From Gemmatimonadota bacterium (GTDB taxonomy: Bacteria; Gemmatimonadota; Gemmatimonadetes; Palauibacterales; Palauibacteraceae): a DNA stretch of 37,659 bases. Position 1 is the stretch's first letter, and every line of letters starts with the position of its first letter. Of the stretch, positions 15,970 through 24,705 are shown one piece after another. Position numbers and translations under genes: made by a program. The notes under the pieces are model-generated. The model was not told the DNA's origin and searched no databases. It saw nothing but the letters and a program-made list of their open reading frames with translations. The stretch spans positions 1 to 37,659 of the forward strand of contig JAJDWE010000074.1 in the NCBI GenBank assembly GCA_022825725.1. The letters are read 5' to 3'.

Positions 15970-17583
15970 ATGACAGGTTTCGACAGCTCCCTTCGAGCGA
16001 GCGAGATCAAGAAGGCCCTGCTCGAGCAGATCGACCGCTACGAGGAGGAACTCCGGGTCGAAGAGGTGGGCGAGGTCCTCGAGGTGAAGGACGGCGTCGC
16101 CCGCATCTGGGGCCTCTCCACGTGCGTCGCGAACGAGATGTTGGAGATCACGTCCCGCGACACCGGGGTCTCCGTGATCGGTCTCGCCTCGAACCTCGAG
16201 GAAGACAACATCGGCGCCGTGATCCTCGGCGACTACCTGGCCCTCAAGGAGGGAGATCCGGTGCGCCGCACCGGCCGCGTCCTCTCCGTGCCCGTCGGCC
16301 CGGAGATTCTCGGCCGCGTCGTGGACACACTGGGGCAGCCGCGCGATGGCCGCGGGCCGATCGAGACCGTCACCTACATGAAGGTCGACCGGAAGGCACC
16401 CGGCATCGTGTACCGCCAGCCGGTGAACGAGCCGCTCCAGACGGGCCTCAAGGCGATCGACTCCATGATTCCGATCGGCCGCGGCCAGCGGGAACTGATC
16501 ATCGGGGACCGGGGCACCGGCAAGACGGCCGTGGCGATCGACGCGATCATCAACCAGAAGGGCGAGGACATCGTCTGCGTCTACTGCGCGATCGGGCAGA
16601 AGGGCTCGACGGTCGCCGGCATCGTGGAGAAGCTCCGCGAAGAGGGCGCGCTCGACTACACCGTCGTGGTGGCGGCGAACGCGTCGGAGCCCGCGCCGAT
16701 GCAGTTCATGGCCCCCTACGCCGCGTGCGCGATCGGCGAGTACTTCATGTACGAGGAGGGGAAGGCCGTCCTCGTCATCTATGACGACCTCACGAAGCAG
16801 GCCGACGCCTACCGCGAGGCCTCCCTCATCCTGCGGCGTCCGCCGGGGCGCGAGGCATACCCGGGCGATGTCTTCTACCTGCACAGCCGCCTGCTCGAGC
16901 GCGCGGCCAAGATCAGCAACGATCCCGAAGCGGTCGCCGGCCACCCGGACATCAAAAAGCCCGGCGGTTCGCTGACCGCGCTCCCGATCATCCAGACGGC
17001 GGCCGGCGACGTGTCCGCCTACATCCCGACGAACGTCATCTCGATCACCGACGGCCAGATCTTCCTCGAGACCGACCTCTTCTACTCGGGCGTGCGCCCG
17101 GCGGTGAACGTGGGGATCTCGGTCTCGCGCGTGGGCGGAAACGCCCAGATCAAGGCGATGAAAAAGGTCGCCGGACGTCTGCGGCTCGACTTGGCGCAGT
17201 TCCGTGAGATCGAGGCTTTCGCGCAGTTCGGCACGGAACTGGACGCCGCGACGCAGCGGCAGTTGGACCGGGGCCGGCGCACCGTCGAGATCCTGAAGCA
17301 GGGCCAGTACGAGCCGATGCCGGTCGAGGAGCAGGTGATGGTGATCTTCGCGGCCACCCAGGGCTTCCTGGACGACCTGGACGTGTCGCGGATCCGCGGC
17401 TGGGAGGTCGGGTTCCTCGAGTACATGGGCACGAACCATCCGGAGGTCGGGGAGGCGATCCGGACGGAGAACGTGATGTCGGACGAGACCGAAGCCGCGC
17501 TCCGCGAGGCGATCGAGTCCTACTCGGACACCTTCGTCCATGACGACGCCTCCCGAGGGGACGCCTCGGACGCCGCGGCATGA
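15970..17583 (+). CDS. atpA: ATP synthase F1 subunit alpha
   Basis: Alpha subunits carry the non-catalytic nucleotide sites of F1. The P-loop is GDRGTGKT (179-186), and the visible signature [26 protein letters not shown] is the family pattern near the C-terminal third; the arginine in SVSRVG is the expected arginine finger. The product is 537 residues, some 25-35 longer than usual, ending in a hydrophilic tail rich in Asp and Ala. The ATG at 15970 follows a GA-rich stretch and gives the classic [14 protein letters not shown]-terminus. The stop overlaps atpG by four bases (ATGA). Confidence 0.97.
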
Positions 17584-18446
17584 GCAAGTCGAGGGACATC
17601 TATCGGCGGATGAAATCCGTCGACAGCACGAAGAAGATCACGCGCACCATGGAGATGGTCGCGACCGCCAAGCTCGCACAGGCGCAGGGGCGGGTGATCC
17701 GCGCACGTCCCTACTCGGCCGAACTGATGGACATGATCGCCCGGCTCGCCACGCCGGATCTGGCGGAATCCCGGCCTCTGCTGCGCCAGCCCGCGCGCAT
17801 CGAACGCGCCGCGGTGGTGCTCGTGACGAGCAATCGCGGGCTGTGCGGCGCCTTCAACGCGAATCTCATTCGCACCGCGCAGACACAGCTCGCCGAACTG
17901 GAGGAAGCCGGAGCCCGGGTCGAGTTCCACGTCTACGGGAACAAGGGAATCTCGTACTTCCGGTTCCGCGGCGTAGAGATGGCGCACACGCGCAACGACC
18001 TGGGGGATCCGCCGACGACGGATGACGCCCGCGCGCTCATCGACGACCTGGCCGCACGCTTCGTGGCCGGGGAACTGGACGCCGTGCGGCTCGTCTTCGC
18101 GGAGTTCCGGAACATGGTGAGCACGCCCCCTTCGGTCCGGCAGGTGCTCCCGGTCGGCGTAGGCGAGGCGCGCAAGGGCCCGCAGCCCTTCTACATCCTG
18201 GATCCGTCGGAGGAGGAAATCCTCGATCATCTCCTGCCGCTCTACGTGACGAACTCGACGTACAGCGCGCTCCTGGAGACGGCGGCGGCGGAGCAGGCGG
18301 CCCGCCGGACGGCGATGAAATCGGCGACCGACAACGCCAACGATTTCCTCGACAACCTGCGGCGGACGTACAACCGCGCCCGCCAGGCCGAGATCACGAA
18401 TCAGATCGCGGAGATCATCGGCGGCGCGGACGCGTTGGACGGGTGA
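17580..18446 (+). CDS. atpG: ATP synthase F1 subunit gamma
   Basis: Gamma is the central rotor shaft. The 288-residue product begins with the coiled-coil helix [28 protein letters not shown], has the Rossmann-like middle part ([18 protein letters not shown]) and ends with the second coiled-coil helix [42 protein letters not shown], which is the family signature. The start overlaps the atpA stop. A 61-bp spacer separates it from atpD. Confidence 0.96.
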
Positions 18447-18504
18447 CGGACGAATAGCGTACAGGGGCGGCGGCGCCCCCGAGAACCGATAGCCATGAGG
18501 CTGA

Positions 18505-20222
<1,718 letters not shown>

Positions 20223-20247
20223 CGTTTCCGGAGTCCGTGGCGGGTGC

Positions 20248-20276
20248 TTGACGCTCCCCCGACCCGACCCTATTTT
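20248..20276 (+). promoter_or_regulatory. Promoter of the 23S-5S rRNA unit
   Basis: TTGACG (20248-20253) and TATTTT (20271-20276) are spaced by exactly 17 bp, starting only 26 bp after the atpC stop. This is the best sigma-70-type match in the window and gives a leader of about 115 bases before the mature 23S. Confidence 0.75.
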
Positions 20277-20285
20277 ATCCGTCTT

Positions 20286-20316
20286 CCCTGCGAGCGCCTT
20301 GGGGCGTCTCGCGGGG
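20286..20316 (+). promoter_or_regulatory. Leader hairpin before boxA
   Basis: CCCTGCGAG (20286-20294) pairs with CTCGCGGGG (20308-20316), with a further GCC/GGC pairing above an internal loop. Six T residues begin five bases after the stem. It could act as a weak terminator for read-through from the atp operon or as part of the rRNA leader structure. Confidence 0.45.
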
Positions 20317-20319
20317 TCC

Positions 20320-20332
20320 GCTTTTTTGACAA
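20320..20332 (+). promoter_or_regulatory. boxA-like antitermination element
   Basis: GCTTTTTTGACAA resembles the rRNA boxA consensus GCTCTTTAACAA (NusB-S10 binding in the nascent RNA), with one extra T and an A-to-G change. Its place in the leader of an rRNA unit is as expected. The embedded TTGACA has no -10 at a proper distance. Confidence 0.55.
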
Positions 20333-20398
20333 TCTGGTAGCGAGTGAGAGTGCTGGGCGCCGAGTGCGTCTGAGGTGCTTGATGCCGTCAACGAAGAT

Positions 20399-23425
<3,027 letters not shown>

Positions 23426-23502
23426 TATCTTCCATATGAGGTCGATAAGCGCTTCAGCGCGCTCGATCGCCCTGCACTCGACTCGTTAGCCGGATCCCTG
23501 AT

Positions 23503-23620
23503 TGCCGGCGGCTTTAGCGAGGGGGAAACACCTGGTCCCATCCCGAACCCAGCAGTTAAGCCCCTCAGCGCCGATGGTACTTGGGCGGGGACGCCCTGGG
23601 AGAGTAGGTCGCTGCCGGCG
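23503..23620 (+). rRNA. rrf: 5S ribosomal RNA
   Basis: The terminal stem pairs GCCGGCGGC (23504-23512) with GCTGCCGGC (23611-23619). Between them are the conserved 5S stretches CCTGGTCCCATCCCGAACCC, AGCAGTTAAGCCCCTCAGCGCC, GATGGTA and GGGAGAGTAGG. The spacer after 23S is about 78 bases and holds no tRNA. Confidence 0.96.
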
Positions 23621-23631
23621 ACTTTCTTGAA

Positions 23632-23669
23632 AACGCCTCGTGTCCGTTGCGGATGCGAGGCGTTTTTTT
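23632..23669 (+). terminator. Intrinsic terminator of the rRNA unit
   Basis: AACGCCTCG (23632-23640) pairs perfectly with CGAGGCGTT (23656-23664), followed directly by a run of T residues to 23669. It sits 12 bases after 5S. Confidence 0.92.
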
Positions 23670-23679
23670 GCATCGGGGT

Positions 23680-23728
23680 GGGAGGGCGAGGGGAGCCGTC
23701 GGCGGTGGCTGGCTGGTGAACGCCGCGG
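23680..23728 (+). repeat. Alternating 47-bp repeat, copy 1 (forward)
   Basis: First of four related copies. Its first 24 bases are an exact reverse complement of 23817-23840 in copy 2, and its last part (23712-23731) is an exact reverse complement of 24026-24045 at copy 4. It lies 11 bp beyond the rRNA terminator. The common pattern is GGGGAGG-n3-AGGG, then CG-rich GCGGT, then TGAACGCC. Confidence 0.8.
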
Positions 23729-23795
23729 CCCGCTCCGCGGCTCGTGGTGCCGATCGTCGCGGTTCCAGCAGGTCGCAGGTCAGGCGGGTTGGAGA

Positions 23796-23840
23796 GCGTT
23801 CAAGGCTGGCGCCATCGCCGACGGCTCCCCTCGCCCTCCC
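23796..23840 (-). repeat. Alternating 47-bp repeat, copy 2 (reverse)
   Basis: Reverse-oriented copy. The segment GCGTTCAAGGCTGGCGC (23796-23812) is an exact inverted match to 23946-23962 in copy 3, while its other half matches copy 1. Copy 2 therefore shares one half-variant with each forward copy. Confidence 0.8.
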
Positions 23841-23920
23841 CGCCGCCAATGCGGGGGAGTAGGCGGGGGCCGGGGTGCGGATCGTCGCGGGGTGGAGCAC
23901 GCTCGCAGGGTGCTGGCTCC

Positions 23921-23967
23921 GGGGAGGAGGAGGGTGTCGGCGGTAGCGCCAGCCTTGAACGCCTGCG
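23921..23967 (+). repeat. Alternating 47-bp repeat, copy 3 (forward)
   Basis: Forward copy starting GGGGAGGAGGAGGGTGTCGG and ending in TTGAACGCCTGCG. Its first half resembles copy 4 most closely, its second half copy 2. Confidence 0.8.
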
Positions 23968-24028
23968 AATTCGGGCCCTTGCGTCCGGGCCGCCGCGCGA
24001 CGGGGTGCGCCCCGGCCGCTCAGCGGGG

Positions 24029-24074
24029 CCGCGGCGTTCACCAGCAAGCTACCGGCGACACCCTTCTCCTCCCC
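24029..24074 (-). repeat. Alternating 47-bp repeat, copy 4 (reverse), overlapping the end of thiE
   Basis: Reverse copy. It contains the thiE stop codon (24049-24051) and the last codons of thiE. Its CCGCGGCGTTCACCAGC end is the inverted match to copy 1. Confidence 0.8.
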
Positions 24075-24705
24075 GGGCGATACGCAGCAATTTCCGTACG
24101 ACGGCGCCCGGGTCCGGTGCGGACATTACGGTAGAGAGGACGGCGATGCCCGCGCCGGTTTCGAGTACCGCGGGCGCGTTTTGCAGCGTGATGCCGCCGA
24201 TTCCGAGACAGGGGAGGCCGCTGGCCTCCCGGACGAGCCGAACTCGGTCGGGGCCGATGGCTTCGTTGGCGAGACCGGGTTTTGAGCGCGTGCCGAACAC
24301 GGCCCCGACGCCCAGATAGTCCGCTCCTGCAGCCGCGGCGCGACGAGCGTCCTCGGGATCATCGGTGGAATAGCCGATGATGAAGCCCGGGGGGGCGATG
24401 TCACGGGCCGCCGGGAGGGGGAGGTCGTCCGGGCCGAGATGGACGCCGTCCGCGCCGGTGGCGAGCGCGACGTCCAGACGGTCGTTCACGATCAGGGCGG
24501 CGCCCGCGGACTTCGTGATCGCCCGGAGCCGCGCGGCGGTCGTGGTGAGCGCCCGGCTGTCCGCGGTCTTGTCGCGGAGCTGGATCGCGGGCGTCCCGGC
24601 GTCCAGACATTCGGCCACGACCCGCTCGAGCGGCTGGCCGCAGGCGGGCCGCGGGTGCGTGATCACCATCAGAGGCCAGCCATCGGACGTGGGCGAGCCG
24701 GGCAT
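24049..24705 (-). CDS. thiE: Thiamine-phosphate synthase ThiE
   Basis: ThiE joins the pyrimidine diphosphate (made by ThiD) to thiazole phosphate to give thiamine phosphate. The 218-residue product is a TIM barrel with QLRDK (diphosphate binding), LIVNDRLDVALATGADGVHLGPDDLP, and GVGAVFGTRSK followed by GIGGI, all classic motifs. The start is ATG 24705 with AGAAGGA just upstream; ATG 24669 (MVITHP) is an alternative that would remove 12 residues. The last eight or so codons (RGGEGCRR) and the stop lie inside copy 4 of the repeat, so the natural C-terminus seems to have been replaced. It is followed at its 5' side by mltG, 13 bp away, in the same orientation. Confidence 0.93.
   Translation of the reverse strand: MPGSPTSDGWPLMVITHPRPACGQPLERVVAECLDAGTPAIQLRDKTADSRALTTTAARLRAITKSAGAALIVNDRLDVALATGADGVHLGPDDLPLPAARDIAPPGFIIGYSTDDPEDARRAAAAGADYLGVGAVFGTRSKPGLANEAIGPDRVRLVREASGLPCLGIGGITLQNAPAVLETGAGIAVLSTVMSAPDPGAVVRKLLRIARGGEGCRR

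Follow-up and report, generated by a model that had tools for sequence, protein, structure and literature searches.

ERIC and Correia-type MITEs are intergenic, non-coding elements of <500 bp that have long imperfect inverted repeats and form a strong RNA hairpin; they occupy tens to hundreds of loci, and occupied and empty sites are found between species. attC sites and IS200/IS605 ends have a variable stem in which pairing is kept, conserved boxes and a conserved mispaired bubble. REPs usually exceed 100 per genome and are dispersed in intergenic DNA, and REPINs combine alternating orientation with hairpin-forming doublets (PMC3116915). Template switching can make and keep perfect stems with multi-base compensatory changes (PMC8794818).

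The element described here lies in a window of 37,659 nucleotides, which is the whole stretch of DNA that was analysed and represents one contig (G000:C80) of an assembly with 84 contigs, 3.49 Mb and 97.7% completeness. It is like ERIC and Correia-type MITEs in its intergenic position, its lack of coding content, its size, its long imperfect inverted repeats and strong RNA hairpin, its occupied and empty sites between species, and a direct repeat at one insertion. In contrast to them it is a composite of two convergent palindromes, is found at 1–2 loci per genome and is limited to one genus as far as searched; MITEs are usually AT-rich (PMC10969869), whereas this twin-hairpin element is GC-rich. 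As in REPINs and BIMEs, its inverted copies form hairpins on a single strand, alternate in orientation within a cluster and allow alternative folds, but its arms of ~45 nt are not REP palindromes, no RAYT was found and genome-wide dispersal is lacking. The kept pairing, conserved boxes and mispaired bubble may be compared with those of attC sites and IS200/IS605 ends as a general resemblance; unlike these systems, the element has no linked integron or IS200 gene, its boxes are apical rather than outer, and there is no cassette. With template-switch quasi-palindromes (PMC8794818) it shares paired double changes, few G-U steps and exchange tracts between arms or units, whereas the conservation of its boxes between loci and species is not explained by within-locus template switching.

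Organization of the element

The 5S rRNA gene (23504–23620, + strand; Rfam RF00001), the single copy found in the genome, is followed by the terminator-like hairpin and T-run of the 23S-5S operon (23630–23666, + strand; inverted repeat I5). The element begins directly after this terminator and spans 23668–24080, with outer limits that are uncertain by about 10 nt. Beyond it lies a thiE-like thiamine monophosphate synthase gene (open reading frame at 24049–24705, − strand; Pfam TMP-TENI, E 2e-53), with its last codons and stop inside the fourth repeat copy; comparison with a relative whose site is empty (G005 contig C57) suggests that a few codons at the thiE end (24049–24090) were replaced by the insertion. 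The 23S and 5S genes (20400–23620) directly follow ATP synthase genes (17500–20390), an order that is kept in three relatives (G001, G008 and G010). The window has no 16S gene or tRNA, and the 16S gene appears to be unlinked from 23S-5S in the genus Ca. Palauibacter.

Four copies of ~45 nt in alternating orientation (+,−,+,−) occur beside the terminator at 23677–24079, as the original prediction had stated. They are not independent 47-bp repeats but the arms of two hairpin units. Both units are imperfect hairpins of ~159 nt and they converge. Unit 1 (23682–23840, + strand) has copies 1 and 2 as arms and scores 130.6 bits (E 2.2e-21) with covariance model R1; unit 2 (23918–24075, − strand) is inverted relative to unit 1, has copies 4 and 3 as arms, and scores 144.4 bits (E 5.5e-24). 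These scores are no independent confirmation because the model was built from 18 units that include both; BLAST searches do confirm the units. The 5′ apical box of unit 1, GGCTGGCTGGTGAACGCCGCG (23707–23727, + strand), is 98% identical among unit 1 orthologues and 87–99% across paralogous groups; for its 3′ apical box, GCGTTCAAGGCTGGCGCC (23796–23813, + strand), the values are 98% and 93–97%. The 5′ and 3′ apical boxes of unit 2 (24030–24050 and 23945–23962, both on the − strand) are 96% and 94% identical among unit 2 orthologues. The spacer between units (23841–23917) contains direct repeat D1, in which a section of loop 1 (23736–23762) recurs over 27 nt at 81% (23864–23890). The whole element of ~410 bp is non-coding and has no conserved gene; each unit has long inverted arms, and the ends of the element are only weakly alike.

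Exact inverted matches between copies had been given as 24, 17 and 20 bases. The last two lengths are correct: GCGTTCAAGGCTGGCGC links copies 2 and 3 (17 nt; 23796 versus 23946) and GCTGGTGAACGCCGCGGCCC links copies 1 and 4 (20 nt; 23712 versus 24026). The first match, GGGAGGGCGAGGGGAGCCGTCGGCG, which links copies 1 and 2 (23680 versus 23816), is 25 nt long. When mismatches are allowed, the arms match over 30 nt at 97% (copies 1 and 2), 29 nt at 93% (copies 3 and 4), 34 nt at 91% (copies 1 and 4) and 27 nt at 93% (copies 2 and 3). Inner arm halves are of two types: a 5′ type that ends in GGTGAACGCC and is common to copies 1 and 4, and a 3′ type that ends in CCTTGAACGCC and is common to copies 2 and 3. 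Copies share inner types in this way because unit 2 is inverted, and the window copies look mosaic because outer halves match within a hairpin while inner halves match by arm type. The mosaic comes from hairpin geometry rather than from recombination in the source genome.

Distribution of the element

A second complete copy lies reversed at C60:50817–51225. It has all four arms and is 72% identical to the window element over ~424 nt. The consensus is thus present elsewhere in the genome, and copies elsewhere occur in inverted pairs: the same four-arm layout recurs at C60 and in other species. The covariance model detects the element in 12 of 17 Ca. Palauibacter genomes, each with 1–2 loci (2–4 units); in a 13th genome (G012) a fragment lies where a contig ends, and no element was found in G004, G006, G013 and G014. 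Local duplication is ruled out by the full reversed copy at C60 and by this distribution within the genus. The four-arm element of ~410 bp, rather than the single 47-bp copy, appears to be what replicates. Searches of the genome with the arm sequences yielded no additional significant copies; short GGTGAACGCCGCGGCC matches elsewhere in it are single, 14–20 nt long, lack a second arm and are unsupported by the covariance model.

Outside the genus, the element is absent from the other 26 genomes searched in the order and from all 229 genomes of a class sample. A box-pattern scan of 84,980 species genomes matched this genus only, plus one locus in two Akkermansia-labelled bins; within the genus, two matching records are named Ca. 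Palauibacter and others are labelled Gemmatimonadales or Gemmatimonadetes and match genus loci. As far as searched, the element is confined to Ca. Palauibacter. Plasmid or phage origin was rejected: no plasmid matched, and the box pattern was seen in none of the viral contigs. The exceptional locus (L141:1940–2023) is a membrane-protein open reading frame, in a bin labelled Akkermansia muciniphila, that matches the 26 specified bases of the box pattern. This exact match would suit descent of the element from a protein-coding gene, with boxes that read LVNAA and AFKAG, but in the element the boxes do not share a reading frame, and no homologue of the Akkermansia-bin protein was found in the genome (in a search run without a positive control). 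Such an origin is disfavoured as extremely improbable, and chance in 257 billion bases is simpler; label and match both look accidental.

The original prediction of an intergenic mobile or REP-like family holds as far as a mobile-like intergenic family is concerned, given the C60 copy, the orthologous and additional sites and the empty sites; REP-likeness is not supported. Membership of a REP, REPIN or BIME family moved by a RAYT would explain why the copies alternate in orientation and form hairpin doublets, features that REPINs also have (PMC3116915). However, 1–2 loci per genome are not many, no copy taken singly is a short REP palindrome, and the REP-associated tyrosine transposase gene that was looked for was not found: Y1_Tnp (PF01797) had no match in the source genome, while 6 of 14 control genomes were positive. 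This origin is disfavoured and very improbable.

The relatives are draft genomes, mostly metagenome-derived, so collapsed or broken copies may partly be assembly effects. Several contigs start within or just beside the element (L087:1–250, L088:1–340, L093, L095, L096, L097, L099, L100 and L101). Many assemblies break there, and the element seems either to break short-read assembly or to vary between strains.

Occupied and empty sites

The orthologous 5S-thiE site holds the element or a remnant in eleven relatives. In G013 and on another contig of the G005 bin (C57), the 5S gene adjoins thiE with no element between them; both are distant relatives, and these empty sites do not fix the element ends. 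The latter contig bears a second 23S-5S-thiE locus of that bin (L120; G005:C57:68653–69185), in which thiE is 74% identical to that of the window; it is possibly a contaminant from another lineage. No flanking direct duplication is seen at the 5S site in the window.

At C60, an intergenic site unrelated to the first, the element lies between two divergent amidohydrolase genes. This site is occupied in G000, G005 and G008 and empty in at least seven genomes (G002, G003, G007, G009, G010, G011 and G012). Empty sites have a flank stretch of ~50–60 nt once, whereas occupied genomes have a diverged copy on each side of the element. The duplication is a diverged direct repeat of 48 nt that none of 500 shuffles equalled, whereas a MITE duplicates a few bases. 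It could stem from rearrangement because it is overlong for a target duplication and diverged, and because the start of neighbouring gene A has diverged as well. With at most two loci per genome, the case for mobility depends on a single additional insertion. Taken together, the sites of insertion, the duplicated flank and the composite size suggest that a miniature element was copied whole, long ago.

Folding

The 418-nt element folds better than any of its dinucleotide shuffles, with z-scores of −7.2 (RNA, + strand), −7.5 (DNA, + strand) and −7.9 (RNA, − strand). The inverted match is not due to chance, because shuffles fold worse and the arrangement of four arms is seen again at C60 and in other species. 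Inverted pairs had been expected to form mutually exclusive hairpins, and the folds agree: for the copies in the window and at C60, a pair of local hairpins and a single nested long-range fold have nearly the same energy (−281.9 versus −275.7 kcal/mol for alternative folds of the window copy, + strand). The nested fold is much stronger than the local hairpins in G011 and G003.

Sequence evolution and decay

Among orthologues, the outer stem is 55–70% identical, the loop 69–75% and the apical boxes 94–98%; by comparison, fourfold-degenerate sites of neighbouring thiE are 64–83% identical. Outer stems thus drift about neutrally yet stay paired, with 94.9% of stem cells pairing. Double changes occur in 15 of 37 stem pairs, and slid controls are only 37–55% paired; these paired-change counts take in related sequences and count cells, not events. 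G-U is almost absent from outer stems (0–1 per 21 pairs), except in one misaligned row, unit 1 of G008a, which a 3-nt deletion displaces in alignment A2. The distance from box to box is 94–96 nt in every complete unit, although loop sequence drifts.

The main rival explanation, which we consider unlikely, is a domesticated cis structure or structured RNA that would either be transcribed, for example by 23S-5S read-through, and act as RNA, or serve as an extended insulator or terminator or as protein-binding DNA, with selection keeping fold and boxes. Conservation of boxes well above thiE fourfold sites, the strong compensatory pattern in stems, constant box spacing despite loop drift, and retention, across most of the genus, next to the single 5S gene found all fit this explanation, and fold covariation supports a conserved structure. 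Template switching gives the same signal, however. The element has no Rfam match at gathering or relaxed thresholds, its outer stems have almost no G-U intermediates, and a one-strand transcript would have one unit sense and the other antisense. A terminator role is senseless at C60, between the starts of two divergent genes, and loss of one unit is seen in several species: unit 1 is gone from G010, most of unit 2 is gone from G002, and in G001 unit 1 is reduced to bare outer arms. In the last case (L098:6400–6460) unit 1 has collapsed to a nearly uninterrupted perfect palindrome, AGGGCGAGGGGAGCC-GTC-GGCTCCCCTCGCCCT; the cause is either deletion at a GGC microhomology or an effect of assembly.

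A selfish or neutral quasi-palindrome would be an old inversion-duplication with arms homogenised by replication template switching, without protein recognition, and the C60 copy would be a chance ectopic duplication. Template switching can account for perfect stems and multi-base compensatory changes (PMC8794818), and few G-U pairs, the collapsed palindrome in G001 and one exchange tract agree with it. That tract is in G011, in which the loop of unit 1 carries the tract found in unit 2, identical over 50 nt, while G003 and G002 keep the other form. This is one clear and real exchange between units, although the exchange of halves that the original prediction had read into the window copies is hairpin geometry. 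Within-locus homogenisation cannot, however, equalise boxes across loci and species when the stem and loop beside them have drifted to 55–75% identity, and we regard this origin as quite unlikely.

Proposed origin

The reading that we prefer, at a probability of roughly 0.47, is that this is an old, rarely moving, low-copy, non-autonomous MITE- or ERIC-like twin-hairpin element of ~410 bp. It would have entered and been copied as one unit beside 5S-thiE, and in a sub-lineage a copy would have been placed between the two amidohydrolase genes, leaving the flanking duplication of ~48 nt. The conserved boxes amid drifting stem and loop imply recognition in trans. The apical boxes, which include a mispaired bubble that is conserved and a stem of 8 bp that closes it off, may be recognised on a folded single strand by a trans-acting protein; candidates are a recombinase or transposase, or an RNA- or DNA-binding protein, which could act as at REPIN/IS200 ends or attC sites. 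Template switching from one arm to the other would be the main, DNA-level means by which outer stems stay complementary, and could produce paired double changes without G-U steps. Stem drift with kept pairing and few G-U pairs fits such copying better than slow RNA compensation, although both may act, and the tract in G011 is a direct sign of exchange between units. Most copies would now be vertically inherited and decay by internal deletion. Both the recogniser and the mobility of the element are what we infer, and no transposase is linked to it. Against a MITE-like reading, variable outer ends and conserved apical boxes are the reverse of a MITE, in which the outer ends should be the most conserved part and here are the least. 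The element could even represent a genus-specific mobile class of twin hairpins, with arm-to-arm copying, a duplication of ~50 nt and an enzyme unrelated to known REP/IS200 transposases that reads the boxes on the single strand once it has folded; we consider this distinctly improbable.

Significance

Ca. Palauibacter is an uncultured genus of sponge- and coral-associated marine symbionts. As far as the tools show, this is an undescribed intergenic element of that genus, of which orthologous, deleted, collapsed and converted copies coexist among related species. It offers a clean natural example of stems that change roughly as fast as neutral sequence, or faster, yet remain paired and show few G-U steps. 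This makes it a suitable system for telling template-switch homogenisation and selection on RNA apart; many RNA claims that rest on covariation are affected by confusion of the two.
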